Assembly: GCF_029263155.1 (NCBI RefSeq)
Contig: NZ_JAJCYB010000046.1
Span: 62,001-126,000, forward strand
Origin: Pseudonocardia sp.
Lineage (GTDB): Bacteria; Actinomycetota; Actinomycetes; Mycobacteriales; Pseudonocardiaceae
Length of the DNA: 64,000 nt
Reading direction: 5' to 3'
Notes under the pieces: model-generated
What the model saw: only the letters and a program-made list of their open reading frames with translations
The model's database searches: none
Told to the model about the DNA's origin: nothing
Program-made: the position numbers and the translations under genes
In this document: positions 29,860 to 50,939 of the stretch, one piece after another
Position numbering within the stretch: position 1 is the stretch's first letter
How the letters are laid out: the number at the start of each line of letters is the position of its first letter

Positions 29860-30672
29860 TCACTTGAGGAGGAAGCCCGCGTCCACGGGGAGGGTCACGC
29901 CGGTGACCCACTTCGCCTCGTCCGACACGAGCCATGTGATCACCGATGACACGTCGGCCATTGGCATCGCGTCGACCGGCATCAGGTTGCCCCGCATGGC
30001 GTCGCCGAGCTCGGGGTTCGCCTCCAGCCATGCCGGGAAGAAGTCGTTGTTCGACATGGGGCTGTCCACGCCGGTCGGGTGGATCGTATTGACCCTGATC
30101 CGTGCGGCTGCCAGCTCCCGCGCCAGGGTCCTCATCAGACCGACGACGCCATGCTTGGCCGCGGTGTAGTGCGTGCATCCCGCGACGCCCTTGAGCCCGG
30201 CGATGGAGGACGTGATGACGATCGACCCGCCGTTTCCGGCCGCGAGCATGTGCGGGACGACCGCTCGGCAGGACTTGAACACGCCGGTGAGGTTGACATC
30301 GATCATGTCGTCCCACTGCTCGTCGCTCAACGCCCACGTGGTGTCGGAGAGGCTGAGGATTCCGGCGTTGGCCAGCAGCACGTCGATACGGTCGAACTCG
30401 CGCATCGCGGTGTCCGCCACCTGCTGCATCGCCGCGGTGTCCCGCACGTCGGCCTGGAGGGCGACACAGCGCCGGTCCTGCTGCTCGACGAGTTTGACCG
30501 TCTCGTCGAGGTCGGCGGCGTCCGCGAGCGGGAAGGGCACCGATGCGATGTCCGACGCGATGTCGCAGACGACCACGTCCGCCCCCTCGCGTGCGAGTGC
30601 CACCGCGTGGGAGCGACCCTGTCCGCGCGCGCCACCGGTGATCACGGCGACCTTGCCGTCGAGCTTGCCCAT
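29860..30672 (-). CDS. Mycofactocin-coupled SDR family oxidoreductase
   Basis: A 270-residue short-chain dehydrogenase. Cofactor motif TGGARGQGRSHAVALAREGADVV, NAG in LLANAGI, catalytic Ser in VITSSIAGLKG, and YxxxK in CTHYTAAKHGVVG. The GGARGQGRSHA start and the longer loop after the acidic CDI residues are those of mycofactocin-associated SDRs, which keep a non-exchangeable NAD(H). It probably oxidises an alcohol of the locus substrate. ATG at 30672 has AGGAAG upstream; it follows the TIM-barrel gene by 51 nt in one operon. A close paralogue lies at 40092. Confidence 0.88.
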   Translation of the reverse strand: MGKLDGKVAVITGGARGQGRSHAVALAREGADVVVCDIASDIASVPFPLADAADLDETVKLVEQQDRRCVALQADVRDTAAMQQVADTAMREFDRIDVLLANAGILSLSDTTWALSDEQWDDMIDVNLTGVFKSCRAVVPHMLAAGNGGSIVITSSIAGLKGVAGCTHYTAAKHGVVGLMRTLARELAAARIRVNTIHPTGVDSPMSNNDFFPAWLEANPELGDAMRGNLMPVDAMPMADVSSVITWLVSDEAKWVTGVTLPVDAGFLLK

Positions 30673-30723
30673 GTCCGTCTTCCTGCCTGTGGGGTTGCGT
30701 GGAGCGCGTGTCGCCCAGGGTTC

Positions 30724-31545
30724 TCAGGGCGCCAGTAGCTGGTCGAGATATGCCTTGCTGATCTCGGCGGCCCGCTGGGGGTCGCCGTCGTAGGAGTCCA
30801 ACTCGACGATCAGCCAGCCGTCGTAACGGACCTCGCGCAGCGCCGCGACCACGTCCGCGAAGTCGATCTCTCCCTGGCCGAGCGGCAGGAAGGCGAACGG
30901 GTCGGGCCGCAGGTCCTTGAGATGGACGTGGCGGACCCGGTCCGGGTAGCGGCGGATCAGCGCGGCCGGGTCCCCGCCGCCGGCCACCAGGTGTGCGGTG
31001 TCGGGGCAGAACCCGATCCGCGACCGCTTCATGACCATGTCGAGCTCGTCGGGGCTCTCCACCATCGTCGTGAGGTGGGGGTGGTAGCAGGCCTGCAGGC
31101 CGTGGCCGGTCGCGATGTCGGTCACCGCGTCGAGTGCCTCGGCCAGCCGGTCGTAGTCCTCGGCCGGGTTGCCGCTGCTGCGCCGGGCGCCCCCGCCGAC
31201 GACGAGGTGCTCCGCGCCGAAGGCGGCACCGAGCTCGGCGGTGACGGAGATCCGGTGGAGCTCGTCGGGCAGGGCGTCCCGGTAGACGAAGTTCCCACCG
31301 GCGTAGACACTGACCAGGCGAAGCCCGGTCTCCGCCAGCAGGGCCCGGAACGCGGCCGGGTCGTCAGCGAGGTCGGCGAGGTTCCCGTCGAACATCTCGA
31401 CGCCGGCGTACCCCGCGGCGGCGATGTCGCGCAGCGCCTGGTGCATCGACCCGGCGGCGCGGTAGTGCAGGTTCTTCACGCTGGTGACGCCGGTGGCGTC
31501 GGCCACCACGCCGCCCCAGGTGATCGAATGGCATCCGCTCCGCAC
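30724..31545 (-). CDS. Xylose-isomerase-like TIM-barrel sugar isomerase/epimerase
   Basis: A 273-residue AP-endonuclease-2/IolE-type TIM barrel. Metal or acid residues are likely in YAGVEMFDGN, HPHLTTMVES, FCPDTAHLVAGGGD, HVHLKDLRPDP and LIVELDSYDGD. The family includes inosose dehydratases and sugar epimerases; GQGEIDF is typical of IolE-like members. GTG at 31545 follows AGGAGG, and the promoter -10 overlaps the earlier ATG at 31572, which excludes that start. First gene of the operon with the SDR, divergent from the ROK regulator. Confidence 0.87.
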   Translation of the reverse strand: MRSGCHSITWGGVVADATGVTSVKNLHYRAAGSMHQALRDIAAAGYAGVEMFDGNLADLADDPAAFRALLAETGLRLVSVYAGGNFVYRDALPDELHRISVTAELGAAFGAEHLVVGGGARRSSGNPAEDYDRLAEALDAVTDIATGHGLQACYHPHLTTMVESPDELDMVMKRSRIGFCPDTAHLVAGGGDPAALIRRYPDRVRHVHLKDLRPDPFAFLPLGQGEIDFADVVAALREVRYDGWLIVELDSYDGDPQRAAEISKAYLDQLLAP

Positions 31546-31571
31546 GACAACCTCCTGTGTTCCGTATGTCA

Positions 31572-31601
31572 TCTAATGTCGTTGGCGTGCAGAAGTCAAC
31601 G
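31572..31601 (-). promoter_or_regulatory. Promoter P1 with shared TTGACTTCTGC box
   Basis: On the minus strand: GTTGACTTCTGCACG with -35 TTGACT (31595-31600), a 17-nt spacer and -10 TTAGAT (31572-31577), about 20 nt before the ribosome site region of the TIM-barrel gene. The TCTGC extension beyond -35 recurs at three other promoters of the locus. The site also forms GTCAA-cgc-TTGAC with the opposite strand (31596-31608). Confidence 0.7.
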
Positions 31602-31765
31602 CTTGACATACTGAACTTGAAAGGGTCGCCACGGCGGGACGGCGGCCGCAGCGAGCGGGCGACGCACGGAACGTCGTCCGGCGTCGACCGCCGGCCCGTC
31701 CGCACACGGTAGGCTCTCCCCGGCGCGAATCCGCGGCCTCGGGCCGGACATGCGGGGGGAAGGCG

Positions 31766-33034
31766 ATGACCGCGACCGACCGGGGAGCGAGTCTTCCCCC
31801 GGAGCAGTTGGACGCACTGGTCACGGTCCTCGACATGGTGCGCTCCGGTGAGGCGTGCACGCGGCCTGAGCTGGGCCGGCGGTCGGGCCTGGGACGAACC
31901 GTCGTCACCCAGCGGGTCGGCCACCTCATCGATTCCGGGCTCGTCGAGGAGGGCTCGCTCGGTCCGTCGACCGGCGGACGTGCACCTCGCCAGCTGCGCT
32001 TCCGAGCCGAGGCCGGGGCCGTGCTCGTCGCCGAGCTGGGGGCCACCAGCATCGGCGTCGGCATCACCGACCTGGCGGGCAGGCTGCTGCACCACAGCGA
32101 GCGTCCCTGGGACATCGCCGCCGGACCCGAGGCTTCGCTGGAGCAGGTGGAGGCGTCCTTCGACGAGCTCCGCGCGAAGCCTGACATCCCAAAGGTGTGG
32201 GGAATCGGGATCGGCGTCCCCGGGCCGGTCGAGATGGCCACCGGACGCCCCGTCGCGCCGCCGATCATGCCCGGATGGGACCGCTATCCCGTGCGCGACC
32301 GGCTCGGCGCGCAGTACGGCGTGCCGGTGTGCGTCGACAACGAGGTCAACGCGATGGCACTCGGCGAGTACCGGGCAGGCCTCGGCCAAGGCTTGCGGGA
32401 CCTCATCTACCTCAAGCTCGGCACGGGTATCGGAGCAGGCCTGATCTCCGGCGGCCGGCCCCATCGCGGGGCGCAGGGCTGCGCGGGGGACGTCGGGCAC
32501 GTCGCCGTCGTCGACGACACCGACGTCGTCTGCCGGTGCGGCAACGTCGGCTGCCTCGAGGCGCTCGCCGGAGGAGCCGCACTGGCGCGCGACGCGACCA
32601 CCGCCGCCACCGGCGGGCAGAGCCCGTTGCTGGCCGAGCGGCTCGCCGCCCAGGGCCACCTGAAGGCCGAGGACGTCGCTCGGGCCGCGGAGTACGGCGA
32701 TCCGGTGTCGGTCGAGCTGCTCACCCGCTCGGGACGCCTGGTCGGGACGATGCTGGCCACCCTGGTCAACTTCTACAACCCGTCGCTGGTGGTCATCGGC
32801 GGCGGCGTGGCGGCGTCGGGCGACCTGCTGCTCTCCGCGATCCGGCAGGCGGTCTACCGGCGCTCGCTCCCGCTCGCCACCCGTAACCTCCGGATCGCCC
32901 GGTCCCCCCTCGACGACCGGGCCGGGCTGATGGGTGCGGGCTTCATGGTTGTGGACGAACTGTTCTCCACCGCCCGGATCGGTACCTGGATCGCGGACGG
33001 TTCCCCGGCGGGGCGCCCGGAACTCACCGCGTGA
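31766..33034 (+). CDS. ROK-family transcriptional regulator
   Basis: A 422-residue NagC/XylR-type repressor. An N-terminal winged helix-turn-helix (residues about 18-75, ACTRPELGRRSGLGRTVVTQRV) is followed by a sugar-kinase-like ROK domain with VWGIGIGVPGPVE, VDNEVNAMALGEYRAG and GTGIGAGLI. The zinc-type motif CRCGNVGCLEAL is present. It likely binds a sugar or sugar-like effector and controls the divergent P1 and other promoters with the shared box. The 3' end overlaps convergent ubiX by 11 nt. Confidence 0.9.
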   Translation: MTATDRGASLPPEQLDALVTVLDMVRSGEACTRPELGRRSGLGRTVVTQRVGHLIDSGLVEEGSLGPSTGGRAPRQLRFRAEAGAVLVAELGATSIGVGITDLAGRLLHHSERPWDIAAGPEASLEQVEASFDELRAKPDIPKVWGIGIGVPGPVEMATGRPVAPPIMPGWDRYPVRDRLGAQYGVPVCVDNEVNAMALGEYRAGLGQGLRDLIYLKLGTGIGAGLISGGRPHRGAQGCAGDVGHVAVVDDTDVVCRCGNVGCLEALAGGAALARDATTAATGGQSPLLAERLAAQGHLKAEDVARAAEYGDPVSVELLTRSGRLVGTMLATLVNFYNPSLVVIGGGVAASGDLLLSAIRQAVYRRSLPLATRNLRIARSPLDDRAGLMGAGFMVVDELFSTARIGTWIADGSPAGRPELTA

Positions 33035-33611
33035 CGCGTGCGTCCGCGATCCCGTTCCACCGGTGGGCTGCCCCGACCTCGAGATCGAACAGGTCGAGGA
33101 CACGGCCGACGGTGTGGTCGACGATCTCCTCCAGCGAGCGCGGGCGGATGTAGAAGGCGGGCACCGGTGGCGCGATGATCGCACCCAGCTCGCTCAGCTC
33201 GGCCATCGTCCGCAGGTGGTTGCGGTGCAGAGGCGTCTCCCGCACCATCAGGACCAGACGGCGCCGCTCCTTCAGCACGACATCCGCCGCGCGAGTCAGC
33301 AGGCCGGACGTCGTCCCGGCGGCGATCTCCGACATCGACTTCACCGAGCACGGGGCCACGACCATCCCCAGCGTGCGGAACGATCCGCTGGCGATGCTCG
33401 CCCCGATGTCGTGGTGGGGGTGCACCACGTCGGCGAGGCGTTCCAGGTCGCCCGCCGTCACGTCGGCCTCGTGCGCCAGGGTCGTGTGCCCGGCCTTGCT
33501 GACCACGAGGTGCGTCTGGACGGGCCCGTCACGCAATAGCTCCAGGATGCGCAGCCCGTAGACGGCGCCGGAGGCACCCGAGATGCCGACGATCAGCCGG
33601 GGGGCGCTCAT
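33024..33611 (-). CDS. UbiX-family flavin prenyltransferase
   Basis: A 195-residue UbiX homologue that makes prenylated FMN, the cofactor of UbiD decarboxylases. FMN-binding GISGASGAVYG at the N-terminus, VVAPCSVKSMSEIAAG in the centre and RRLVLMVRETPLH before the dimethylallyl-phosphate site are present. Its start overlaps the UbiD stop by 4 nt (ATGA). It is the last gene of a six-gene minus-strand operon starting at 38766. Confidence 0.93.
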   Translation of the reverse strand: MSAPRLIVGISGASGAVYGLRILELLRDGPVQTHLVVSKAGHTTLAHEADVTAGDLERLADVVHPHHDIGASIASGSFRTLGMVVAPCSVKSMSEIAAGTTSGLLTRAADVVLKERRRLVLMVRETPLHRNHLRTMAELSELGAIIAPPVPAFYIRPRSLEEIVDHTVGRVLDLFDLEVGAAHRWNGIADARVTR

Positions 33612-35035
33612 CGGGACAACCGCTCCAGCCAGTCCGCCGGGGCGGGCTCGGTCAGGCTCTCGACGTCGAGCTCCAGCTCACCCGGCACCCGGATCCGGGT
33701 GAAGGTCATCTCCGGGACACTGAGCGGGACGGTGGCGTCGAGCCCCATCTTGGCGCCCACCCCGTCGACCGTGGAGGGATCGAGCTTCGAGCCCTGCGTC
33801 CCGGCGACGACGACCAGGTCACGGTCGGCCTGGAAGCGTGTCGCCACCGCCCACTCGACCTCGGTGGGGTTGTGCACGTCCACGTCGGTGTCCACCACCG
33901 TGACGTGCTTGACGTCGTAGTGCACGGCGAGCGCGCCGAGGATGACGTTCTTGGCCTCGCCCTCCGAACGCTTGTCGATCTGCACGGCCAGGTGGTAGCG
34001 GCAGGTACCGCCGCGCGAGAGGTGCACGTCCCGGACCGAGGGGAAGCTGCGGCGCAGGTCCGACAGGAACGACGCCTCACGGGGAATGCCCCCGAGCAGC
34101 AGGTGCTCCATGCTGCCGCCCACGATGGTGTGGAACAGCGGCCGGCGCCGGTGGGTCACCGCGGTCACCTCGATCACGTGCCGCAACGCGCGCTCGCCGT
34201 AGTACTGCGGGAACTCGCCGAAGGGGCCCTCGGCCTCGCGGACGTCGGCGAGCAGCCGGCCCTCCAGGACGATCTCGGCGTCGGCCGGCACCCGGACGTC
34301 ACTGGTCAGGCAGCGGGTCACCGGCAGCGCCGAGCCGCGCAGGGCGCCGGAGATCTCCAGCTCGTCGTGCCCGATCGGCACGATCGCCTGCGAGGCCAGC
34401 AACGTCAGCGGGTCCACCCCGATGACGACGGCCACGTCGAGATCGCGCCCGGCAGCTTCCTGCTCCTGGAAGAACGCCAGCGTGTGCCGCGGGAGCAGCA
34501 GCGCGCCGAGCCGATCCCGGCCGCTCACCTGCAACCGGTGGATCGCGACGTTCTGGACGCCGGTGTCCGGATGACGGGTGATCAGCAGGCCGGCGGTGAT
34601 GTAGGCGCCGCGGTCGTGCTCGTTGTGGGTGGGGATCGGGAGCAGGCGGGTGAGGTCGACCTCGTGGTGCACGACCTGCTGGCAGGGCGGGTCGGTGACC
34701 TCGCGGCTGGGCACCGGCTCGAGGCACGCCTGCTCGAATCGGCGCAGCAGCTCGGACTGGGGTACGTCCATCGCCTCGGCCATCCAGGCCCGCTGAAGGA
34801 GCAGCCCGGACACCACGGGGACCGGGTGGCCCCCGGGGCGCGGGAACGCCGTGGCGCTGGTGCCCTCGAGCCGGTTGGCCAGCCCGGCGACACCGTGGAC
34901 CAGGTCCATGCCGGGGCTGCCCAGGGTGAGCCGCCCGGTCCGTCGGAGTTGGTCGAGCCAGCCGCGCATACTCGCGCCGACCGGAGGGGCAGGGACCGTC
35001 GCCCCCGCGGGGGGCGCACTCGGGTGCGCGGTCAT
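33608..35035 (-). CDS. UbiD-family prenyl-FMN-dependent decarboxylase
   Basis: A 475-residue UbiD-family enzyme, expected to decarboxylate (or reversibly carboxylate) an aromatic or alpha,beta-unsaturated acid. The active-site region REAEGPFGEFPQYYG carries the conserved glutamate, with IHRLQVSGRDRLGALL and the REASFLSDLRRSFP region also family-like. The N-terminal ~20 residues are Ala/Pro-rich; ATG at 34969 is an alternative start, but ATG at 35035 overlaps the upstream stop (ATGA). Pairing with UbiX shows the cofactor is made locally. The natural substrate may be a hydroxybenzoate, but this is not shown. Confidence 0.92.
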   Translation of the reverse strand: MTAHPSAPPAGATVPAPPVGASMRGWLDQLRRTGRLTLGSPGMDLVHGVAGLANRLEGTSATAFPRPGGHPVPVVSGLLLQRAWMAEAMDVPQSELLRRFEQACLEPVPSREVTDPPCQQVVHHEVDLTRLLPIPTHNEHDRGAYITAGLLITRHPDTGVQNVAIHRLQVSGRDRLGALLLPRHTLAFFQEQEAAGRDLDVAVVIGVDPLTLLASQAIVPIGHDELEISGALRGSALPVTRCLTSDVRVPADAEIVLEGRLLADVREAEGPFGEFPQYYGERALRHVIEVTAVTHRRRPLFHTIVGGSMEHLLLGGIPREASFLSDLRRSFPSVRDVHLSRGGTCRYHLAVQIDKRSEGEAKNVILGALAVHYDVKHVTVVDTDVDVHNPTEVEWAVATRFQADRDLVVVAGTQGSKLDPSTVDGVGAKMGLDATVPLSVPEMTFTRIRVPGELELDVESLTEPAPADWLERLSR

Positions 35036-35925
35036 CGGATCACTCCTTCGTCATGGGACCGTTGCCCGACCCCGTCGAGGAGCGGGCGCAGGAAGCGCGC
35101 GGACTCGGCGGCGAGCGCGTCCATAGACGGGGCGACCGGCCGCCACAGCGACACCGCGCGGGCGATCTCGCGGACCGTCGGGAGGAACGACTCGACGACG
35201 ACGGCGCCGGTGTAACCGACCTCGTCGAGCGCCTCGACCGTCCCGGGCCAGTCCGTGTGTCCGCTGCCGGGGGTACCGCGGTCGTTCTCCGAGGCCTGCA
35301 CGGCGAGGATCCGGCTTCCGGCGGCCCGCACGGCCCCGGGCAGGCTCTTCTCCTCGATGTTCATGTGGAAGGTGTCGAGCAGCAGGCCGACGTGTGCGGC
35401 ACCGATGTCGTCACAGAGCCGCAGCCCCTGCTCCACGGTGTTGACCAGGTCGGTCTCGAACCGGTTGAGGGGCTCGACGGCCAGCCCGACTCCCGCCTGC
35501 GCCGCGACCGCCGCGACCGCGCGCAGGCTCTCGACAGCGCGATCCCACTGAGCCTGCCGCTCGCCCCGATCGAGCAGCCGCGCCTGACCGGTCGGGGCGT
35601 ACATCGGGCCGCTGACCAGCGGGCTCTGCACCTCGGCGGCGAACGCGATGCAGTGCTCCAGGTAGTCGCGCCCGGCGCGGCGGTGCGCAGAGTCCTCGTG
35701 CGAGACGTCGCGGCCGGGTCCGAACGCCCCACACACCAGGACGGACAGCCCCTCGGCACGTGCTGTCCGGGCGACCTGCGCCGCGGTCAGCACGGTGGGG
35801 TCCTCGATGCAGACCTCCACGAGGTCGTACCCCCATCCGCGGACCTTGCCGAACAGGTGGAGGTCCTGGTCGGAGAACGGGGAGGCGAGCACGAAGGTGC
35901 TCAGGCCGATCGGGTGCGCGGCCAC
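35032..35925 (-). CDS. D-tagatose/D-psicose 3-epimerase-like TIM barrel
   Basis: A 297-residue sugar epimerase-like enzyme. Metal/catalytic residues are seen in LAVEPLNRFETDL (Glu), LLDTFHMNIEE (Asp and His), VQASENDRGTPGSGHTDW (His) and VVVESF (Glu), the set used by ketose 3-epimerases for Mn-dependent C3 epimerisation. It follows the next TIM-barrel gene by 1 nt and overlaps ubiD by 4 nt. Confidence 0.88.
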   Translation of the reverse strand: MAAHPIGLSTFVLASPFSDQDLHLFGKVRGWGYDLVEVCIEDPTVLTAAQVARTARAEGLSVLVCGAFGPGRDVSHEDSAHRRAGRDYLEHCIAFAAEVQSPLVSGPMYAPTGQARLLDRGERQAQWDRAVESLRAVAAVAAQAGVGLAVEPLNRFETDLVNTVEQGLRLCDDIGAAHVGLLLDTFHMNIEEKSLPGAVRAAGSRILAVQASENDRGTPGSGHTDWPGTVEALDEVGYTGAVVVESFLPTVREIARAVSLWRPVAPSMDALAAESARFLRPLLDGVGQRSHDEGVIR

Positions 35926-35926
35926 C

Positions 35927-36793
35927 TCAGCCCTTCCCGTCCAGCGCCCGCCGGGCCCGCACCTGCTGCTCGACGGCGCGCAGCGTCCGGATCGCGCGCT
36001 CGGTGTAGCGGTCGAAGAACTCCTCCTGGCGTCCGGAGGCGAACGGGTCGGCCGCGGCGGGTAGCAGCTCGAAGCTGAGGTACCCGCGGTAGTCGATGTC
36101 GATCAGCACGTCGACGATCGGCTCGAAGTCGATGAGCGCCCCACCGGGAGCGGTGCGGTCGGAGTCGGCCAGGTGCACGTGCTGCAGCACCCCGGCGCTG
36201 GCCCGGAACGCCTCGACGATCGAGGACTCCTCGATGTTCATGTGGAACGTGTCGCCCTGCACGCCGCCGTTGGCGAGACCGGTGGCCGCCCACAGCGCAC
36301 GGGCCTGCTCGAGCCGGTTGAGGAAGTAGGACTCGTAACGGTTCCAACACTCCAGGGAGAAGCTGACGCCCTGTTGCGCGGCGTACTCGCCCGCGGTGCG
36401 GATCGACTCGACCGCCCACGTCCACTCGTCGGCGGGATCGGCCAGCGGGGCCGTCTTCATGCAGGCGGTCGGGTGCACGACGACGGTCGGGCAGCCCATC
36501 ACGGCCGCGAAGTCCGCGAGGTCCTTCACGTACTCGATCGCGCGGGCCCGCTGGGCGGCGGCGGGGTGGACGAGGTCCCGCTCGGCGGTGTAGATCGAGC
36601 AGATGCTGCTGACGGCGATGCCCGCATCGGCCGTGCGACGCGCGACCTGCCGAGGATCGATGCGCTCGGGCTCGCCGACGATCTCGATGGCGTCGTAACC
36701 GAAGCGGGCGACGCGCTCGACCGACTCGGCGAGGTCCTCCCCGACGTATACCAGTGAGTTGTAGGCGTACCGGAACGGGGTGTCGGTGCTCAT
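35927..36793 (-). CDS. TIM-barrel sugar isomerase/epimerase
   Basis: A 288-residue xylose-isomerase-like barrel. FGYDAIEIVGEPERID begins the barrel; SLECWNRYES, QGDTFHMNIEE, VHLADSDR and LSFELLP carry the likely metal-binding Glu/Asp/His residues. It is a diverged paralogue of the 35032 gene, sharing DTFHMNIEE. One of five such barrels in the ROK locus. Confidence 0.87.
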   Translation of the reverse strand: MSTDTPFRYAYNSLVYVGEDLAESVERVARFGYDAIEIVGEPERIDPRQVARRTADAGIAVSSICSIYTAERDLVHPAAAQRARAIEYVKDLADFAAVMGCPTVVVHPTACMKTAPLADPADEWTWAVESIRTAGEYAAQQGVSFSLECWNRYESYFLNRLEQARALWAATGLANGGVQGDTFHMNIEESSIVEAFRASAGVLQHVHLADSDRTAPGGALIDFEPIVDVLIDIDYRGYLSFELLPAAADPFASGRQEEFFDRYTERAIRTLRAVEQQVRARRALDGKG

Positions 36794-38947: not shown

Positions 38948-38978
38948 ACGGTATTGATTGAAACGTGCAGAAGTCAAC
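38948..38978 (-). promoter_or_regulatory. Promoter P2 with shared TTGACTTCTGC box
   Basis: Minus strand GTTGACTTCTGCACG (complement of 38964-38978) is identical over 15 bp to P1. -35 TTGACT at 38972-38977; a possible -10 TACCGT lies at 38948-38953 with an 18-nt spacer. It faces the Gfo/Idh-UbiD-UbiX operon. Confidence 0.6.
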
Positions 38979-39100: not shown

Positions 39101-39130
39101 GTTGACATCTGCTTGTCAGAGACATAAGAC
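39101..39130 (+). promoter_or_regulatory. Promoter P3 with shared TTGACATCTGC box
   Basis: GTTGACATCTGC with -35 TTGACA (39102-39107), a 17-nt spacer and -10 TAAGAC (39125-39130). It drives the plus-strand isomerase-SDR-reductase genes and is divergent from P2, about 120 bp apart. Confidence 0.7.
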
Positions 39131-39199
39131 TGCGGTCTCGCGATCGAAGCGACCCCGGTCACACCACGGTGGTCGCCCTGCCGTCTCGAAGGAGCGCCT

Positions 39200-42369: not shown

Positions 42370-42400
42370 ATTGACATCTGCACACGGTATGCATAAGAAT
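42370..42400 (+). promoter_or_regulatory. Promoter P4 with shared TTGACATCTGC box and long leader
   Basis: ATTGACATCTGCACA: -35 TTGACA (42371-42376), a 17-nt spacer, -10 TAAGAA (42394-42399). It precedes the ABC transporter-P450 operon. The expected transcript has a leader of about 225 nt (to 42630), rich in pyrimidines and CCGGT-type self-complementary segments. Confidence 0.72.
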
Positions 42401-42630
42401 GACTCCAGAGCGCCTGATCCGATACTGCCGGCGCACCCGATGACGCCGAAGACCTGAATCGCTCGGCGCCGGAGCGCGACCGTTTCCTCACGAAGGACCG
42501 GTCGCCCTTCCGGCAGGTCACGGTGTGCCCGTGCCCGCTCCGGCGCTCCTTTCCGCCCGTTCTGGACTTTCCCCCGGTGGACCGTTTCCCGGTCCCCTCT
42601 CTCCCCCTCCCGTCAAACAAAGGAGTCAAC

Positions 42631-43673: not shown

Positions 43674-44495
43674 GTGAGCGAGATGCTGAGGGAACGCACG
43701 ACTGAGGTACGGGCGCGCGCGGTCGTCGGGCGGTCCGCCTACGGCCTGCTGGGCGTCGCGGGCGTGCTGGTGGTCCTGCAGGCGATGTCCGTGCTCGAGA
43801 TCGTGGACCGCAACACATTCCCACCCGTCACCGAGGACATCGCGGTGCTGGCGGAGCAGATGACCACGGCGACGTTCTGGTCCGCCGTCGGGAGCACGAT
43901 GATCGGCTGGGCGGTCGGTCTGGGCCTGGCGATCCTCATCGCGGTGCCGGTGGGCGTGCTGGTGGGGTCGTTCCCGCTGGCCTACCGGGCCTTCCGGATC
44001 CCGATCGAGTTCCTGCGCCCGATCCCCTCGGTCGCGCTCATCCCGCTCGCGGTGCTGCTGTTCGGGACGGGCATGGAATTCAAGCTCTTCCTGATCGTCT
44101 TCGCCTCGATCTGGCCGATCCTCATCCAGGTGCTCTACGGCGTGCAGGACGTCGACCCCGTCGCCAGCGACACGGCCCGCTCCTTCGGCTTCGGCCCGGT
44201 GAGCCGTCTGGTGCGGGTGACTTTGCCCAGCGCGCTGCCCTATGCGGCAACCGGCCTGCGCATCTCCGCCTCGATCGCGCTCGTGCTGGCGATCACCGCG
44301 GAGATCGTGGTCGGCGCCCCCGGCCTGGGCGGACTGATCAACTCGGCCCAGCAGGGAGGCTCCTACACCGTCATGTACGCGCTCATCCTCGCCACCGGAC
44401 TGCTCGGCTGGGGCGTCAACGTCGCCCTGGAACGCGGTGAACGGCGGGTCCTGCACTGGCACGTCTCGCACCGTCCGACAGGAGCCGAACTGTGA
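43674..44495 (+). CDS. ABC transporter permease (SsuC/NitT type)
   Basis: A 273-residue BPD_transp_1 permease with about six membrane helices. The ATPase-coupling loop reads DVDPVASDTARSFGFGPVSRLVRVTLPSA, ending in the conserved LPxA. It should form the channel with the adjacent permease. GTG at 43674 has AGGAGGAG upstream; its stop overlaps the next start (GTGA). Confidence 0.9.
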   Translation: MSEMLRERTTEVRARAVVGRSAYGLLGVAGVLVVLQAMSVLEIVDRNTFPPVTEDIAVLAEQMTTATFWSAVGSTMIGWAVGLGLAILIAVPVGVLVGSFPLAYRAFRIPIEFLRPIPSVALIPLAVLLFGTGMEFKLFLIVFASIWPILIQVLYGVQDVDPVASDTARSFGFGPVSRLVRVTLPSALPYAATGLRISASIALVLAITAEIVVGAPGLGGLINSAQQGGSYTVMYALILATGLLGWGVNVALERGERRVLHWHVSHRPTGAEL

Positions 44496-45274
44496 GGGCA
44501 CACCGTGGGGCGGCGGGCACGGCGCTGGAGATCGCCGTCCCCATCCTGATCTTGCTCGGTTGGGGGGTGTGGTCCGCGCAGGCCGGAAGCCTCTACTTCC
44601 CGCCCCTGACCGAGATCCTGCAGGCCTTCTGGAACATCCTGCTGCTGGAGCGGTTCGTCAGCGACGTGCTGCCGAGCCTCAGCCGGCTGATGGTCGGATA
44701 CGTGCTCGGGGTCGGCCTGGGCATCGTGGCGGGCTTCCTGCTCGGGCTGTCGGAGACCCTGACCCGGATCACCGGACCGCTCGTGCACTTCATGCGCGCC
44801 CTGCCGGCACCGGCGATCCTGCCCTTCGCCCTGCTGGTCTTCGGCCTGGGTGACGCCATGAAGATCAGCCTGATCGCCTTCGGGTGCTTCTTCCCGGTGC
44901 TGCTGACAACCATCGACGGGGTCCGCGGCATCGAGCCGGACTACCTCGCCGCAACCAGGGTGTACGGGATCAGCCGGAGGGACCGGCTGTGGCACGTGAT
45001 GCTGCCGGCGGCGCTTCCGCAGATTGTCGGGGGAATGCGCACCAGCCTGTCGCTGGGGTTCATCCTCGTCGTGATCAGCGAGATGGTCGCGGCGACATCG
45101 GGGATCGGTTACTTCGTCCTGCAGGCCCAGCGCACCTACGAGCTGCCGAACATGTGGGCGGGAATGATCCTGCTCGGCATTCTCGGATACCTCGTCAACG
45201 TCGTCTTCGTCCTTGTGGAGCGGCGGGTGCTGCGCTGGCACCGGGGAGCACGAGCAACAGCGGACGCGCAGTGA
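44492..45274 (+). CDS. ABC transporter permease (SsuC/NitT type)
   Basis: A 260-residue second permease with six predicted helices and the coupling loop EPDYLAATRVYGISRRDRLWHVMLPAALPQ. The presence of two different permease genes suggests a heterodimeric channel, whereas SsuC/TauC systems usually use one gene twice. Coupled to the first permease by a 4-nt overlap. Confidence 0.9.
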   Translation: MRAHRGAAGTALEIAVPILILLGWGVWSAQAGSLYFPPLTEILQAFWNILLLERFVSDVLPSLSRLMVGYVLGVGLGIVAGFLLGLSETLTRITGPLVHFMRALPAPAILPFALLVFGLGDAMKISLIAFGCFFPVLLTTIDGVRGIEPDYLAATRVYGISRRDRLWHVMLPAALPQIVGGMRTSLSLGFILVVISEMVAATSGIGYFVLQAQRTYELPNMWAGMILLGILGYLVNVVFVLVERRVLRWHRGARATADAQ

Positions 45275-45308
45275 GCCTCGTCCACCCGACGTCGAGAGGA
45301 GCCGAACA

Positions 45309-46151
45309 ATGCTCGAGATCCACCACCTGAGCAAGACCTACGGAACGGGGGCCGCCGCCACAACGGCCGTCGGTGACGTCTCGTTCACCGTCGAGAAGGG
45401 CGAGTTCGTCTGCGTCGTGGGCCCATCGGGATGCGGCAAGACGACCCTGCTCAAGTGCATGTCGGGGCTGCTGACGCCGACCTCGGGCGAGGCGCGGCTG
45501 CACGGCGTCCGCATCGACAGCCCACCCCGGCAGATGGCGCTGGTCTTCCAGGACTACAGCCGGTCGCTGTTCCCCTGGATGACCACGCGGCAGAACATCA
45601 TGTTCCCGCTGAAGAACAAGAACCCCGACCGGAAGACCGCCCGCAAGCTGGCCGACCAGGCCGCCGAATCGGTTGGTCTCGGGGGCTTCGGCGACCGCTA
45701 CCCGTGGCAGCTCTCCGGCGGTATGCAGCAGCGGGTGGCGATCGCCCGGGCGCTGGCCTACCAGCCCGAGATCCTGCTCATGGACGAGCCGTTCGCCTCC
45801 GTCGACGCTCAGACACGCGTGGACCTCGAGGACCTGACGCTGCGGCTGCGGAACGACTACGGCGTGACCGTGGTGTTCGTGACCCACGACATCGACGAGT
45901 CGGTCTACCTCGCCGACCGCGTCGTGATGCTCACGCAACGTCCCACGAAGGTCGGGGAGATCCTCGATGTCGACCTGCCGCGCCCGCGCGACCAGGTGGC
46001 GACCAAGGAGCTGCCTCGCTTCGCCGAGCTGCGGGCACACGTCTACACCGCGATGAAGCGCCCGGGGGCGGCCGAGCTGCGCCCACCCGTCGATGCGCCG
46101 GCGCCCCCGCGCGACACCGGTCTCACCGCGGAGATGAACCTGCAGCACTGA
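45309..46151 (+). CDS. ABC transporter ATP-binding protein (SsuB/NitT type)
   Basis: A 280-residue ATPase with Walker A GPSGCGKTT, Q-loop VFQDYSRSLFPW, signature LSGGMQQRVAIARAL, Walker B ILLMDEPFASVD and the H-loop VFVTHDIDES. The VTHD(I/V)xEA-like segment and FPWM(T)T motif are typical of nitrate/sulfonate/aromatic-acid importers. ATG at 45309 after GAGGAGCCGAAC; the frame is open upstream into the permease but not coding. The last ~30 residues are Pro/Ala-rich. Confidence 0.92.
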   Translation: MLEIHHLSKTYGTGAAATTAVGDVSFTVEKGEFVCVVGPSGCGKTTLLKCMSGLLTPTSGEARLHGVRIDSPPRQMALVFQDYSRSLFPWMTTRQNIMFPLKNKNPDRKTARKLADQAAESVGLGGFGDRYPWQLSGGMQQRVAIARALAYQPEILLMDEPFASVDAQTRVDLEDLTLRLRNDYGVTVVFVTHDIDESVYLADRVVMLTQRPTKVGEILDVDLPRPRDQVATKELPRFAELRAHVYTAMKRPGAAELRPPVDAPAPPRDTGLTAEMNLQH

Positions 46152-46443: not shown

Positions 46444-47688
46444 ATGAGCCTGTACACCCAGTTCGACCACTACAACCCGCCGATCGGTCCGGACGGCACG
46501 CCCTACGAGTTCTACGAGGCGCTGCGCGATGAGGCGCTGCAGACCGATACCCCGATCGGCTGGAGCGAGGTGTACGGCGGCTTCTGGGTGGTGACGGGGT
46601 GGGCCGAGGCCAAGGAGATCCAGCGCAACAACACCGCGTTCTCCAACGCGGGGACGACGTTCCCGACCTACGACACCCCCAACGACCGGCCCCTGATGCT
46701 CGCCGGCAGCGATGACCCCCAGCACGCCAAGTACCGCAAGTTCGTGCAGGCGCGTTTCTCGCCGGGCCAGGCCCAGGGTTTTGCCTACCGGCTGCGGGTG
46801 GTCACCAACGAGCTCATCGACTCCTTCATCGACCGCGGTCGCTTCGACCTGGCCGACGGTTTCACGAACGAGCTGCCCGCCCGGCTGACGGCGATCATGG
46901 GCGGCCTGCCCGAGTCCGACACCGGCCTGTACCGCACCTGGGTGCACGCCGCGGCGCAACTCTCGGTGGCCAAGTCGGGCGCGTCCGCGGCCTACATCCG
47001 GGAGCTCGACGAGTACTTCCAGACCAAGATCGAGGACTGGCGCTCGCGTCCGGACGGCGACTACATGGCGATGATCGCCCAGGGCCATATCGACGGTGAG
47101 CCCCTCAGCGACGCCGAGGTCAAGGGCTTCTTCTTCGGACTCCTGCTCGGCGCCATCGACAACACCTCCTACCTGCTCGCCAGCATGTTCTGGCGGCTGT
47201 CGTGGGACCACGAGCTGCGCCGCAGGCTGGTGCGCCACCCGGAGCTACTGCCCAGCGCCATCGACGAGTTCCTGCGGTTCTACTCACCCGGCATCTCCGG
47301 GCGCCTGGTCCTCGAGCGCATCACCCTCGGCGGGGTCACGATGGAGCCGGGCCAGCAGGTCGTCATGCTCCACCAGGTCGAGAACCGTGACCCCCGCGAG
47401 TTCGAGCACCCCGACGTGTTCGTGCCGGACCGCTCGCCCAACCGCCACTTCGCGCTCGGCCTGGGAATCCACCGCTGCCTGGGGATGCACATCCTTCGGG
47501 TCGAGGCCCAGGTCATGGCCGAGGAGTTCTTCAAGCGCATCCCGGAGTGGCGGTTGGACCCGGACCGTCCGGCGCGCTGGTACGCCGGCCAGGTCAGCGG
47601 GATGGCGACGGTGCCGATCGTGTTCCCTCCCGGCGGCGGACTCCCCGAGCCCGGCTGGGTCCCCGGCCGCGAACCGGCCCACGCATGA
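46444..47688 (+). CDS. Cytochrome P450 monooxygenase
   Basis: A 414-residue soluble bacterial P450. ExxR is in DEFLRFYS; the haem-thiolate loop is FALGLGIHRCLGMH with Cys345. The I-helix oxygen-activation motif reads LGAIDNTSY: Asp239 is followed by Asn240 where most P450s have Thr. P450cin (CYP176A1) carries a similar Asn. The enzyme probably hydroxylates or O-dealkylates the locus substrate, fed by the ferredoxins at 46193 and 49196 and the reductase at 40901. ATG at 46444 follows GAGAGGA. Its stop overlaps the next ATG by 4 nt. Confidence 0.93.
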   Translation: MSLYTQFDHYNPPIGPDGTPYEFYEALRDEALQTDTPIGWSEVYGGFWVVTGWAEAKEIQRNNTAFSNAGTTFPTYDTPNDRPLMLAGSDDPQHAKYRKFVQARFSPGQAQGFAYRLRVVTNELIDSFIDRGRFDLADGFTNELPARLTAIMGGLPESDTGLYRTWVHAAAQLSVAKSGASAAYIRELDEYFQTKIEDWRSRPDGDYMAMIAQGHIDGEPLSDAEVKGFFFGLLLGAIDNTSYLLASMFWRLSWDHELRRRLVRHPELLPSAIDEFLRFYSPGISGRLVLERITLGGVTMEPGQQVVMLHQVENRDPREFEHPDVFVPDRSPNRHFALGLGIHRCLGMHILRVEAQVMAEEFFKRIPEWRLDPDRPARWYAGQVSGMATVPIVFPPGGGLPEPGWVPGREPAHA

Positions 47689-49175
47689 GCGCGGGGGGCG
47701 TGCAGGCACGCACCCCGTCGCCCGGCGCGACGGTCGAGGGGCCGGTGCCCGTGACCGCGGAGTCCCGCCCGTTCATGGTGCGCAGGGGCGATCTGGACGC
47801 CGCGGGGTTCGTCGTCGAGGAGTACTTCCTCGCCGGTACGGCCAACGTCTACGACTGGGGCCCGGAGGGGACGTCGGAGAGTCCGGTCGTGCGCACACCT
47901 GCCGCGCCGTACCGCACGCGGATGCTCATCCGCAGGCCGGTGGACCCGACCCGGTTCAGCGGGAACGTTTGGGTCGAGCTGAGCAACCCCTCCCGTGCGC
48001 ACGACATCGAGCTGCAATGGTGCGCGGCGACCGACAAGTTCCTGCGCGACGGTGACGTGCACGTGGCGTTGACGATCAAGCCCATCGCGGTTGCCGCGCT
48101 GCAGCGTTTCGACCCGGTCCGCTATGCGTCGCTGTCGATGGCCAACCCGCTGCCACCGCAGGAGCAGACGGTCGGCTCGCTGCCGGGCGAGCCCGGCTAC
48201 GACGAGAACCTCTCGAAGCTCTCCGAGAACGGGTTGGCCTGGGACATCATCAGCCAGGTCGGACTGCTGATGCGCAGCGGAGATCACGCCGGGTCGCTGC
48301 GGGGCTACGACGTCCGGCACGTGTTCGCCACCGGCGTCTCCCAGACCGGATTCTTCCTCAACACGTGGACGGCGAACTTCTCCGGCCCGGCCGCGGCGGC
48401 CGCGGGCGGGCCGGTCTACGACGGCGTCGTCGCGTTCATCGGCGCGGGGAAGACGGTGCCGATCAACCAGGCGCTCGCGGCCACCGGGCCCGACGACCCG
48501 CGCAGCGCGCTGCCCGCCGGGCACGTCCCCTTCATCCGCGCCGACTCGCAGAGCGAGCCGTTCACCCTCGACGGGTACCGGACGCGCCGGCCCGACAGCG
48601 ACGACCCTGCGGACCCCTACCGGCTCTACGAGTACGCCGGCACCTCCCATGGCTGGTCGGATATCTACAACCACCAGGCACCGCTCGCCGACGTGCTAGC
48701 CGCAGGTGCCGCGCCGCTGACCTTCGCCACCTGCGCGGAGCACACCTGGAACAGCCTGCCGCGGCAGTACCTCGAACCGGCGGTGCTGGCCAACATGGAG
48801 CGCTGGGTCGCCGACGGGCTCGCCCCGCCGCGGCAGGCCGAGCCGCTCCGGATCCTGGAGCCGGGTACCCCGCGGGCCCGTTTCGAGACCGACGAGCACG
48901 GCAACGTGCTCGGCGGGGTGCGCACGCCCTATGTGGACGTGCCGACCCGCACCTACCACGACCGCGCCACCGACTCGTCCCCGCGCGATCTCGGGCGCTT
49001 CTTCGGTCACGAGGTGCGGTTCGGGAGCGCGGTGCTCGAGCAGCTCTACGGTGGCCACGCCGACTACGTGGCTCGGGTGGACGCGGCAGTGGCGGAGATG
49101 CTGGCCCAACGCTGGGTGGAGCCGGCCGAGGCCGAGCACATCCGCGCGCACGCGCGTTACACAGCGATCCCCTAG
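47685..49175 (+). CDS. Large alpha/beta hydrolase domain protein (Abhydrolase_10-like)
   Basis: A 496-residue enzyme of the family annotated 'alpha/beta hydrolase domain-containing'. The nucleophile elbow is VFATGVSQTGFFLNTW; RADSQSEPF and YEYAGTSHGWSD supply the probable acid and His. N-terminal strands include RMLIRRPVDPTRFSGNVWVEL. No signal peptide is seen. It could hydrolyse an ester or lactone in the pathway. ATG at 47685 overlaps the P450 stop (ATGA), so it is coupled to P450 expression. Confidence 0.82.
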   Translation: MSAGGVQARTPSPGATVEGPVPVTAESRPFMVRRGDLDAAGFVVEEYFLAGTANVYDWGPEGTSESPVVRTPAAPYRTRMLIRRPVDPTRFSGNVWVELSNPSRAHDIELQWCAATDKFLRDGDVHVALTIKPIAVAALQRFDPVRYASLSMANPLPPQEQTVGSLPGEPGYDENLSKLSENGLAWDIISQVGLLMRSGDHAGSLRGYDVRHVFATGVSQTGFFLNTWTANFSGPAAAAAGGPVYDGVVAFIGAGKTVPINQALAATGPDDPRSALPAGHVPFIRADSQSEPFTLDGYRTRRPDSDDPADPYRLYEYAGTSHGWSDIYNHQAPLADVLAAGAAPLTFATCAEHTWNSLPRQYLEPAVLANMERWVADGLAPPRQAEPLRILEPGTPRARFETDEHGNVLGGVRTPYVDVPTRTYHDRATDSSPRDLGRFFGHEVRFGSAVLEQLYGGHADYVARVDAAVAEMLAQRWVEPAEAEHIRAHARYTAIP

Positions 49176-49195: not shown

Positions 49196-49453
49196 ATGGC
49201 ATACGTGATCGGTCAGGCGTGCATCGGCGAGAAGCGCGGGGAGTGCGTTCCCGTCTGTCCGGTGGATTGCATCCATCCGACACCCGACGAGGCGGGCTAC
49301 GCGAGCGCGGAGCAGCTGTACATCAACCCCGACGAGTGCATCGACTGCGAGGCTTGTAAGGACGCGTGCCCGGTGAACGCGATCAGCCACGAGGAGTTCC
49401 TGACGGTGGATCTGCAGCGCTTCATCGAGATCAACGCGGCTTTCTACCGGTGA
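49196..49453 (+). CDS. 7Fe/8Fe-type ferredoxin (FdxA-like)
   Basis: An 85-residue ferredoxin: ACIGEKRGECVPVCPVDCIHP in the first half and DECIDCEACKDACPVNAI in the second. The second set is C-x2-C-x2-C-x3-CP. The first, C-x7-C-x3-CP, is characteristic of a [3Fe-4S] plus [4Fe-4S] protein. ATG at 49196. A second electron carrier in the same operon as the P450; it may serve another oxidase or link to the FprA-type reductase. Confidence 0.9.
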   Translation: MAYVIGQACIGEKRGECVPVCPVDCIHPTPDEAGYASAEQLYINPDECIDCEACKDACPVNAISHEEFLTVDLQRFIEINAAFYR

Positions 49454-49465
49454 GAGGACGAGGAC

Positions 49466-49621
49466 GTGGCAAAGACGCGCCTGAAGTGCCCATGCGGCGA
49501 GATGATCACCGCGCCGGACGAGGATCTACTCGTCGAGCGGGCCTACGCGCACCTGGCCGCGGAGCATCCCGCGCTGGCCGACACCTACACGCGCGACGAA
49601 GTCCTCTTCATGGCGTACTGA
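49466..49621 (+). CDS. DUF1059-like small protein
   Basis: A 51-residue protein starting GTG 49466 after GAGGACGAGG: KTRLKCPCGEMITAPDED, then VERAYAHLAAEHPALADTYTRDEVLFMAY. The N-terminal C-x-C and the DEDLLVERAYAHLAAEHP helix match DUF1059-type proteins. Function unknown; the CPCG turn could bind metal. It lies 12 nt after the ferredoxin and 4 nt before the next in-frame ATG region, so it belongs to the operon. Confidence 0.65.
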   Translation: MAKTRLKCPCGEMITAPDEDLLVERAYAHLAAEHPALADTYTRDEVLFMAY

Positions 49622-49673
49622 GCGCATGCGGGGGCCGGCACCGATGACACGTTCGACGAAGCGAGGCGGGGGA

Positions 49674-50939
49674 ATGGTGGATACCGCAGTCCGGATGGTC
49701 GGAGTCGCGGGGGAGCAGTGGGACTCGCTGGTCGCGGTGCTCGACCTCATCCGGCGGGACGAGGCACGCACTCGCGCCGAGCTCGGACGGCAGCTCGCCC
49801 TCGGGCGGTCATTGGTTACCCAGCGGGTGGGTCAGCTGATCGGAAGCGGGTTGGTGGAGGAGGGCTCGCTCGGATCGTCCACCGGCGGACGGGCCCCCCG
49901 CGAGCTGCGCTTCCGGGCTTCGGCCGGCACCGTGCTCGTGGCCGAGCTGGGGGTGACGAAAGTGAGTGTCGGCCGCACGGATCTGTCCGGCGCCCTGATC
50001 GAGCATCACGAGCAGGCCTGGGACATCGCGCAGGGACCGGATGCCTCGCTCCGTCAGATTGGCGACCTGTTCGACACGTTCGGCCACCGCGAACCGGTCT
50101 GGGGCATCGGGTTGGGCGTGCCGGGTCCGGTGGAGTTCCTCTCCGGCCGCCCGATCGCTCCGCCGATGATGCCGGGCTGGGACGGCTTCCCGGTCCGGGA
50201 CTGGCTGGCCGCCCGCTACGCCGCGCCGGTCTGGGTGGACAACGAGGTCAACGCCATGGCACTGGGCGAGTACCGGGCCGGCCTCGGTCGCGGCATCGAT
50301 GACCAGGTATTCGTCAAGATCGGGTCGGGTATCGGTGCGGGGCTCATCTCAGGTGGCCGCCTGCACCGGGGAGCGCAGGGATGCGCGGGCGACGTCGGGC
50401 ATGTGGCCGTCACCGATCCGGTCGGGACGATCTGCCGCTGCGGGAGAAGCGGCTGCCTGGAGGCCGTAGCCGGCGGGTACGCGCTGGTGCGGGATGCGAC
50501 GGCCGCCGCTGCGGAAGGACACAGCGAGCACCTCGCCGCCCGCCTGATGGCCATGGGCCGCCTGGAACCGCGAGACGTCACGGGCGCGGCGGAGTTCGGC
50601 GATCGCGTCGCGATGGAGCTGATGAATCGGGCGGGCCGCCGGATCGGGGAGATGCTCGCGACGCTGGTCAACTTCTACAATCCCTCACTGATCGTGGTCG
50701 GCGGGGGCGTCGCCGCTGTGGGGGACCAGCTGCTAGCGGCGATCCGGCAGAACGTGTATCAGCGATCCCTCCCGCTCGCGACGCGCGACCTGCGCATTGT
50801 TGCGTCCGAGCTGGACGACCGTGCCGGGCTCGTGGGCGCAGGACTGATGGTGATCGACGAGCTGTTCTCCAGCGAGCGAATCCGGTACTGGTTCGACTGC
50901 AGGACGCCGGCGGGCCGCCCCGAGCTTGCGGCATGCTGA
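49674..50939 (+). CDS. ROK-family transcriptional regulator (paralogue)
   Basis: A 421-residue regulator clearly related to the 31766 protein over its whole length: winged HTH (ARTRAELGRQLALGRSLVTQRV), identical DNEVNAMALGEYRAGLG and HRGAQGCAGDVGHVAV, and zinc motif CRCGRSGCLEAV. The start is uncertain (ATG 49674 used; 49626 and 49644 are in frame); 49674 aligns best with the paralogue. It ends the P450 operon, so it may be autoregulated through P4. Two ROK paralogues in one locus could sense different effectors or form a graded switch. Confidence 0.88.
   Translation: MVDTAVRMVGVAGEQWDSLVAVLDLIRRDEARTRAELGRQLALGRSLVTQRVGQLIGSGLVEEGSLGSSTGGRAPRELRFRASAGTVLVAELGVTKVSVGRTDLSGALIEHHEQAWDIAQGPDASLRQIGDLFDTFGHREPVWGIGLGVPGPVEFLSGRPIAPPMMPGWDGFPVRDWLAARYAAPVWVDNEVNAMALGEYRAGLGRGIDDQVFVKIGSGIGAGLISGGRLHRGAQGCAGDVGHVAVTDPVGTICRCGRSGCLEAVAGGYALVRDATAAAAEGHSEHLAARLMAMGRLEPRDVTGAAEFGDRVAMELMNRAGRRIGEMLATLVNFYNPSLIVVGGGVAAVGDQLLAAIRQNVYQRSLPLATRDLRIVASELDDRAGLVGAGLMVIDELFSSERIRYWFDCRTPAGRPELAAC

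Follow-up and report, generated by a model that had tools for sequence, protein, structure and literature searches.

Which compound does a bacterium break down with a gene cluster that joins a UbiD-type decarboxylase and its UbiX flavin prenyltransferase to a sugar-type dehydrogenase of the Gfo/Idh family, five TIM barrels and a cytochrome P450? The cluster occupies 29860-50939 of a stretch of 64,000 nucleotides from Pseudonocardia sp. (assembly GCF_029263155.1, contig NZ_JAJCYB010000046.1, positions 62,001 to 126,000 of the forward strand), hereafter the window. In the window, as in the metagenome-assembled genome (MAG) of another Pseudonocardia, a decarboxylase of the HmfF (furandicarboxylate) type appears to share an operon with the sugar-type dehydrogenase and TIM barrels, and a regulon with a terpene-type P450. 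The answer favoured here, tentative and somewhat short of an even chance, is that one inducible regulon serves one conjugated substrate, in which a carbohydrate- or cyclitol-like moiety is combined with a small furanoid or terpenoid one.

Composition of the cluster and its predicted regulon

Matches to Pfam and NCBIfam models assign 21 genes within these limits, plus an open reading frame (ORF) of 51 amino acids with a sub-threshold match (Table 1), and every component named in a first-pass annotation of this DNA is found there. The five TIM barrels it had counted are likewise present, with PF01261 matches at 30748-31431, 35086-35847, 36062-36721, 36848-37585 and 39295-40017, four of them scoring 111-139 bits and the fifth 73 bits (cut-off 31.1). 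The two ROK regulators are paralogues (68% identity), as are the two short-chain dehydrogenases (SDRs; 64%); the latter match the mycofactocin-coupled model TIGR03971 with 371 and 364 bits (cut-off 300), and MftC, the radical-SAM gene of the mycofactocin system, is also present in the genome (639 bits against a cut-off of 265).

Comparison of the cluster's intergenic stretches yielded a promoter word, TTGACWTCTGC, which has exactly four copies in the genome of 5,847,196 bases, all of them at the four promoters of this cluster. About 1.1 genome copies are expected from base composition alone, and the word read backwards has none. With one mismatch allowed, there are no further copies in the window; shuffled sequences average 0.52 copies, and the count stayed below four in all 100 of them. 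As read from the sequence, each copy constitutes a -35-like box, and a -10-like hexamer follows 17-18 nt downstream. Four transcription units would start at these sites, namely TIM1-SDR1, Gfo-TIM4-TIM3-TIM2-UbiD-UbiX, TIM5-SDR2-FdR (a ferredoxin reductase-like protein) and a long unit running from the ATP-binding cassette (ABC) importer through ferredoxin, P450, Abhydrolase_10 and Fdx (a second ferredoxin) to ROK2; they are very probably co-regulated as one regulon, with a ROK protein as the presumed binder of the word. Counterparts occur in a locus of the Pseudonocardia relative (L056), upstream of the transporter (no mismatch), FdR (two mismatches) and Gfo (two mismatches), and no exact copy was seen in the other relative loci scanned alongside it.

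The UbiD/UbiX pair and the furan link

Among solved structures, UbiD scores 464 bits against HmfF (6h6v, the Pelotomaculum enzyme) and 208 bits against the next distinct enzyme, with 51.5% identity to HmfF over 433 positions. Two arginines that matter in HmfF are kept in the alignment as R319 and R346, and so is a histidine, H311 here, which aligns with H297 of HmfF (296 in chain numbering). This histidine is described as key for furan specificity in a passage of the HmfF literature (PMC7976604), and part of a paper on P. umsongensis presents HmfF as a decarboxylase of 2,5-furandicarboxylate (FDCA) that feeds 2-furoate towards 2-ketoglutarate. With good probability, then, the protein is of the HmfF type, with a predicted 2,5-furandicarboxylate decarboxylase activity. 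The first-pass annotation had linked UbiD with aromatic acids. Action on a benzoate-type acid is not supported, given this similarity and the uninterrupted furoate operon hmfD-A-E-B-C that the assembly carries on another contig (C43). A vanillate-type decarboxylase was also considered and rejected, the VdcC model giving 282 bits against a cut-off of 650.

The neighbourhoods of related decarboxylases were consulted through searches that used identity or E-value cut-offs, which distant copies can escape; each phylum search covered a sample of 396 genomes, and the scan of the genome collection two peptide patterns. Eight loci with relatives of UbiD at 60-73% identity, the kin of the cluster set aside, were examined (G125, G231, Dinoroseobacter, Paraburkholderia largidicola, Bosea, Azospirillum, Caballeronia and P. 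phymatum); six were drawn from 31 plasmid records and two from genomes. A gene for the large subunit of furoyl-CoA dehydrogenase lies in the fetched flanks of six of the eight, the P. largidicola locus having supplied the query, and in none of three loci (about 20 kb each) whose UbiDs are 42-44% identical. The window has no match to a GMC-type oxidase of 5-hydroxymethylfurfural or 5-hydroxymethylfuran-2-carboxylate; such a gene is present in only three of the eight loci (L047, L094 and L095) and is thus not a universal neighbour of hmfF.

The P450 and its electron chain

The P450 aligns with P450cin at 449 bits (52.2% identity over 395 positions) and reaches at most 158 bits against any other P450 listed from the PDB. 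P450s of one family share over 40% identity, a level that the protein exceeds against P450cin, of the family CYP176. Its I-helix carries the motif GAIDN, in which N240 aligns with the asparagine of P450cin (N242, where other P450s keep a conserved threonine). The enzyme is thus, by alignment, a relative of P450cin, a hydroxylase of the monoterpene ether 1,8-cineole. A P450-ferredoxin fusion was rejected: the nominal 482-residue ORF has its start codon (46240) within the ferredoxin gene, which is a separate gene read in a different frame, and the real P450 start lies near 46444. This mis-started ORF was the BLAST query for the P450, and a 39-residue query termed "small" lay in a wrong frame; of the matches to these two, those of the P450 alone enter the claims made here.

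Such P450s are rare. At E 1e-80 they occur in one of the 396 sampled phylum genomes, the cluster's own, and at E 1e-60 in two plasmid records; the genome-collection scan returned 11 loci, ten at 45-96% identity and one at 28%. On a Rhodococcus plasmid, a P450 of 51% identity is neighboured by reductase, flavodoxin and SDR genes, a neighbourhood that looks like a cineole cluster. Relatives of FdR (58-64%) lie near P450 genes in three MAGs of the BP series described below.

The Gfo/Idh dehydrogenase and the TIM barrels

TIM4 set aside, the NCBIfam equivalog models place TIM1, TIM2 and TIM3 all below their cut-offs (IolE, 133 of 290 bits; NF051856, 166 of 300; NF041099, 159 of 300). TIM1 shows H-P-H, D, H and E at its strand ends and is likened to AtOGE because the H-x-H/D/H/E pattern is common to both; a passage on this O-glycoside eliminase gives His132, His134, Asp163, His189 and Glu233 (PMC10628242). 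In TIM2, a glutamine replaces the metal-binding histidine of strand 7 in all four aligned sequences, the window's included. TIM4 may be a remote relative of 2-hydroxy-3-keto-glucal hydratase, its profile giving 57 bits to that enzyme (8ro4), behind 91 bits to the uncharacterised 2zds; a Gfo match adjoins it in nine of the 12 TIM4 loci examined. TIM5 has no PDB match and, to judge from its residues, seems to lack the usual metal ligands.

The best NCBIfam match of Gfo is levoglucosan dehydrogenase (NF052479), at 139 bits against a cut-off of 650, and an identity as levoglucosan dehydrogenase proper was rejected on this score. In systems built on C-glycoside deglycosidases, an accessory small subunit adjoins the TIM barrel; none was recognised in the Pfam matches of the selected ORFs that were scanned. 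In the levoglucosan route, as outlined in excerpts of two reports (PMC7676230, PMC10066097), Gfo enzymes and PF01261 barrels oxidise, eliminate, hydrate and reduce, and it is because this chemistry is established for levoglucosan that comparable sugar chemistry would be plausible here, as a proposal. The Gfo and TIM genes are reasonably likely to constitute a sugar or cyclitol module. On a plasmid of Streptomyces sp. NBC_00564 (L038:1-36918), ROK, Gfo and a TIM4 of 68% identity lie near GH78 and ring-hydroxylating dioxygenase genes, an arrangement that hints at a role of Gfo-TIM4 in glycoside breakdown.

Conservation of gene order

Among the genomes searched, the nearest named relative of the window genome is a Pseudonocardia MAG. 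In two loci of the MAG of Pseudonocardia sp. RYN_179 (L056/L071), matches of 77-96% follow the order of the window and comprise ROK1, UbiD, TIM2, TIM3, Gfo, FdR, the transporter, P450, Abhydrolase_10, Fdx and ROK2. UbiD stands in one gene run with TIM2, TIM3 and Gfo in both genomes. Parts of the order recur in two other MAGs, BP_206 and BP_174, where Gfo-TIM4-zinc alcohol dehydrogenase (ADH)-TIM3-TIM2 is accompanied by a divergent ROK1 (TIM4 76-78%, TIM3 76-80%, TIM2 70-73%); BP_205 shows TIM3-TIM2 and TIM2-P450 pieces only, and TIM3 relatives at 76-86% occur in four MAGs. A P450cin-type gene directly follows TIM2 in BP_206 and BP_205, and each of the three BP MAGs has at least two P450cin-type genes, FdR, Fdx, a GDSL-type esterase gene and a ribose-type importer. 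With its shared promoter word and a gene order largely kept in one Pseudonocardia MAG, the cluster looks like the coherent catabolic unit with ROK regulators that had been proposed.

In BP_206, a second Pseudonocardiales MAG, the Gfo-TIM4-ADH-TIM3-TIM2-P450 block and ROK1 stand beside a complete hmfD-A-E-B-C operon on one contig (locus L079). A search of four MAGs found the UbiD at 88% in RYN_179 and at 76% in BP_174, the latter with UbiX and on another contig. Furan-type genes (UbiD or hmf) are thus physically linked to the Gfo/TIM/P450 set in three genomes: the window's, RYN_179 and BP_206. Outside this group, a plasmid of Metabacillus (Bacillota) has two Gfo genes, a TIM4-like gene (26%), zinc ADHs, TIM3 (47%), TIM1 (50%) and a ribose-type importer, while Halalkalicoccus has TIM2 (42%), TIM3 (46%), an ADH and an importer; neither P450 nor UbiD was found in the flanks read of these two sets. 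Our own reading is that a widespread carbohydrate-type module has been joined to P450 and furan genes in some Pseudonocardiales.

A proposed pathway and its alternatives

With a single conjugated substrate, the ROK regulators would probably bind the word across the four -35 boxes and be released by a sugar-like inducer, and the ABC importer would take the compound up. The Abhydrolase_10 protein may cut an ester. By family-level analogy, Gfo/Idh would form a keto sugar by oxidising the ring of the sugar or cyclitol; on the products, TIM1 would act by elimination, TIM4 by hydration, and TIM2 and TIM3 by epimerisation. The P450cin-type enzyme, supplied by FdR and ferredoxin, would hydroxylate the non-sugar part at a site that is itself conjectural, and the mycofactocin SDRs could oxidise the resulting alcohol. 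UbiX and UbiD would then, as strong homology suggests, convert 2,5-furandicarboxylate or a close analogue into 2-furoate, which HmfD-A-E-B-C, present as an operon on the other contig and with a chemistry known from hmf systems, would carry to 2-oxoglutarate. The order of the steps is part of the proposal, like the substrate itself.

Several observations weigh against this reading. The known substrate of P450cin is not a furan. TIM1, TIM4, TIM5, SDR1, SDR2 and UbiX were not found in the RYN_179 stretch (about 27 of 33 kb read) and may be accessory. In two of the four MAGs searched, BP_205 and BP_206, no match to an HmfF-type UbiD turned up at E 1e-40, so that the P450/TIM set could do without UbiD there, if these assemblies are not missing part of the genome; the linkage to furoate genes and that to UbiD thus come from different genomes, the UbiD matches lying in RYN_179 and BP_174 and the hmf neighbourhood in BP_206. 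The importer is of the SsuA type in the window and of the ribose type in the BP MAGs. Among the eight loci with UbiD relatives, those of Bosea and Azospirillum have no furoyl-CoA dehydrogenase gene nearby. The hmf operon of the window's genome lies on another contig, without a copy of the operator, in an assembly rated 5.98% contaminated, and no aldehyde dehydrogenase for finishing the oxidation to FDCA was recognised in the regulon. As to the promoter word, it was chosen after these promoters had been inspected and it overlaps the -35 consensus, and it is therefore the genome-wide count and the Pseudonocardia relative that carry weight.

Two separate pathways under one switch are one alternative: sugar, anhydrosugar or cyclitol use by Gfo and the TIM barrels, and furan use by UbiD/hmf, the P450 and the SDRs, for substrates that co-occur unjoined, as levoglucosan and furans do in heated or burnt plant carbohydrate. 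The similar carbohydrate-type set that stands alone in Metabacillus fits such a division, as do six loci in which a UbiD relative and hmf genes occur without a recognised TIM block (two of them checked for hmf only) and the TIM/P450 genes of BP_205 and BP_206, the two MAGs without a UbiD match. Levoglucosan use, in the portions of PMC7676230 and PMC10066097 that describe it, needs Gfo enzymes and TIM barrels, and levoglucosan dehydrogenase is the best, if sub-threshold, match of Gfo; that match, however, is far under its cut-off, a shared substrate is favoured by the gene run that UbiD forms, in the window as in RYN_179, together with TIM2, TIM3 and Gfo, and P450cin-type genes come directly after TIM2 in BP_206 and BP_205. 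Separate pathways are rather unlikely.

It is more doubtful still that the P450 and its partners, ferredoxin and reductase, serve in O-demethylation (or O-dealkylation), acting on a methylated sugar or cyclitol that Gfo/Idh and the TIM barrels then degrade, on the model of rhizopine or 6-O-methylgalactose use, with UbiD as a side branch. Gfo/Idh, the IolE-like TIM1 and the ribose-type importers of the relatives recall the families of the moc genes, and the BP MAGs have P450s, ferredoxin, reductase and a ribose-type importer, with a zinc ADH in BP_206 and BP_174. A title cited in PMC10107442 proposes a ferredoxin oxygenase complex for moc, and in an excerpt of PMC10033563 the demethylation of 6-O-methyl-D-galactose is the work of a P450 served by a ferredoxin and a reductase, a zinc ADH gene lying close by. 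This model nevertheless leaves UbiD in the operon, and the hmf operon adjoining the block in BP_206, unexplained, and of the P450s listed from the PDB, P450cin is by far the nearest to the enzyme of the window.

Least supported, and highly improbable, is the model of the first-pass annotation, in which an aromatic C- or O-glycoside is deglycosylated, its aromatic acid decarboxylated by UbiD and the ring cleaved by a LigB-type dioxygenase (51734): a LigB-domain gene does lie 0.8 kb beyond ROK2, and some TIM-barrel enzymes cut 3-keto-glycosides by beta-elimination according to a passage of PMC10628242, but UbiD is of the HmfF type and LigB lies outside the operator set, with no operator copy near it and no match in the syntenic RYN_179 locus. 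The "LigAB enzyme" of that annotation is a LigB-domain protein, rejected here as a member of the unit, and the hand-off to it is not supported. What survives of the aromatic glycoside or cyclitol-conjugate hypothesis is the Gfo/TIM part, a carbohydrate- or cyclitol-type set that recurs in other phyla.

The single-substrate regulon favoured here also has a bold version, in which a dedicated route starts with a bicyclic ether or terpenoid, glycosylated or bound to a cyclitol, and leads through furan dicarboxylate into central metabolism, and in its boldest form the TIM barrels themselves dehydrate a keto-sugar acid to furan dicarboxylate; we give this very little credence. The barrels proposed for the boldest form include the IolE-like eliminase, the glutamine-metal epimerase (TIM2) and the barrel without metal ligands (TIM5). 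If it were true, HmfF/hmf would be a carbohydrate-degrading branch and not a pathway for heat-made furans.

Relation to known systems

Like the hmf pathway of Cupriavidus and Pseudomonas, the cluster has an HmfF-type UbiD with UbiX and, in the same assembly, hmfD-A-E-B-C, and the relative BP_206 has the furoate operon on one contig with the Gfo/TIM/P450 block. In contrast to that pathway, the window has no GMC oxidase match and its regulon no recognised aldehyde dehydrogenase, ROK takes the place of the LysR/AraC regulators annotated in two hmf loci, and TIM/Gfo carbohydrate genes and a P450 are joined in. With the cineole catabolism of P450cin (CYP176A1) it shares the P450 (52% identity) and the IDN motif of the I-helix; here, however, iron-sulphur ferredoxins stand instead of flavodoxin, and the P450 is embedded in a carbohydrate-type regulon. 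The levoglucosan pathway (LgdA/B1/B2/C) and the beta-elimination of 3-keto-glycosides likewise use Gfo/Idh with several PF01261 barrels, whereas the family scores here are below cut-offs and P450, UbiD and SDR genes are extra. Rhizopine (moc) catabolism, compared at the level of gene families, would share Gfo/Idh, an IolE-like barrel and an oxygenase with ferredoxin, a P450 here replacing the moc oxygenase and HmfF/UbiX being additional.

Each kind of enzyme is known; the combination is new, and a search of titles and abstract beginnings of open-licence PMC papers found no paper that has it among those listed. Furan acids are usually discussed as heat-made products of sugars that are handled by hmf genes. 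If confirmed, the shared operon and regulon would suggest that furandicarboxylate has a natural source, would assign functions to TIM barrels that are now orphans and to a P450cin-like clade, and would provide a promoter/operator set with exact testable sites.

Features and neighbouring genes

Table 1. Genes and promoter elements of the cluster (window positions; scores in bits).
Feature	Position	Strand	Basis or remark
SDR1, mycofactocin-coupled short-chain dehydrogenase	29860..30672	-	TIGR03971 370.7 bits, cut-off 300
TIM1, IolE-like TIM barrel, H-P-H at strand 5	30724..31572	-	PF01261 139 bits; start possibly GTG near 31545
Putative operator/-35 copy 1, promoter of TIM1-SDR1	31589..31599	-	TTGACTTCTGC exact; -10-like TTAGAT 17 nt on
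ROK1 transcriptional regulator	31766..33034	+	PF00480 196 bits
UbiX flavin prenyltransferase	33024..33611	-	NF004685 259 bits (cut-off 188); TIGR00421 234 bits (cut-off 108.9)
UbiD, predicted HmfF-type furan-dicarboxylate decarboxylase	33608..35035	-	6h6v HmfF 464 bits; TIGR00148 344 bits (cut-off 244.9)
TIM2, ketose-3-epimerase-like	35032..35925	-	NF051856 166 bits (below cut-off 300); PDB psicose 3-epimerase 130 bits
TIM3, IolO/epimerase-like TIM barrel	35927..36793	-	NF041099 159 bits, below cut-off 300
TIM4, TIM barrel paired with Gfo/Idh	36809..37729	-	PF01261 111 bits; profile match to 8ro4 57 bits
Gfo/Idh/MocA dehydrogenase	37726..38766	-	PF01408 88 bits
Putative operator/-35 copy 2, promoter of Gfo-TIM4-TIM3-TIM2-UbiD-UbiX	38967..38977	-	exact; two-mismatch counterpart L056:4132
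Putative operator/-35 copy 3, promoter of TIM5-SDR2-FdR	39102..39112	+	exact; two-mismatch counterpart L056:4251
TIM5, divergent TIM barrel, start uncertain	39169..40095	+	PF01261 73 bits
SDR2, mycofactocin-coupled short-chain dehydrogenase, start approximate	40095..40904	+	TIGR03971 364 bits (longer ORF 39993-40904)
FdR, FAD-dependent ferredoxin reductase-like	40901..42334	+	PF07992 31 bits (longer ORF)
Putative operator/-35 copy 4, promoter of transporter-P450 unit	42371..42381	+	exact; exact counterpart L056:5833
ABC substrate-binding protein, SsuA/NMT1 type	42523..43608	+	PF09084 109 bits
ABC permease A	43674..44495	+	PF00528 72.5 bits
ABC permease B	44492..45274	+	PF00528 96.8 bits
ABC ATPase	45213..46151	+	PF00005 118 bits
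Small ferredoxin adjoining P450	46193..46402	+	PF13370 31 bits, PF13459 29 bits, both above cut-off
P450, P450cin (CYP176-type) relative	46444..47688	+	449 bits to P450cin
Abhydrolase_10, putative esterase, 542-aa ORF	47547..49175	+	PF20091 408 bits; true start probably near 47685
Fdx, second ferredoxin	49196..49453	+	PF00037 41 bits, two stretches
Small ORF, weak DUF1059-like match	49466..49621	+	16.7 bits, below cut-off 21.1
ROK2 regulator	49626..50939	+	PF00480 186 bits

Abhydrolase_10 has no PDB relative at E 0.01 and no match in the plasmid search, and any substrate class given to it is a guess. Beyond the cluster, an ORF at 51220-51591 matches only 31 positions of an aldehyde dehydrogenase profile and is possibly a gene remnant. 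A second carbohydrate-type set (glycerate kinase, TIM6, DUF993 and Gfo2) lies at 53506-57830, without the operator of the first cluster, and is followed by a LacI regulator and ABC genes. In the genome as a whole, there are sixteen matches to a molybdopterin-hydroxylase large subunit, some of them paired pieces at one place.

A 287-bp piece that includes the 3' end of SDR1 (29690-29975) has a second copy, 96% identical, towards the other end of its contig (C46:130807-131093, equivalent to L054:8808-9094), which may represent either a recent partial duplication or an assembly effect. Genes for a DDE transposase and an IS3-family transposase (25602-28880) adjoin the left border of the cluster and are consistent with its acquisition by transfer.

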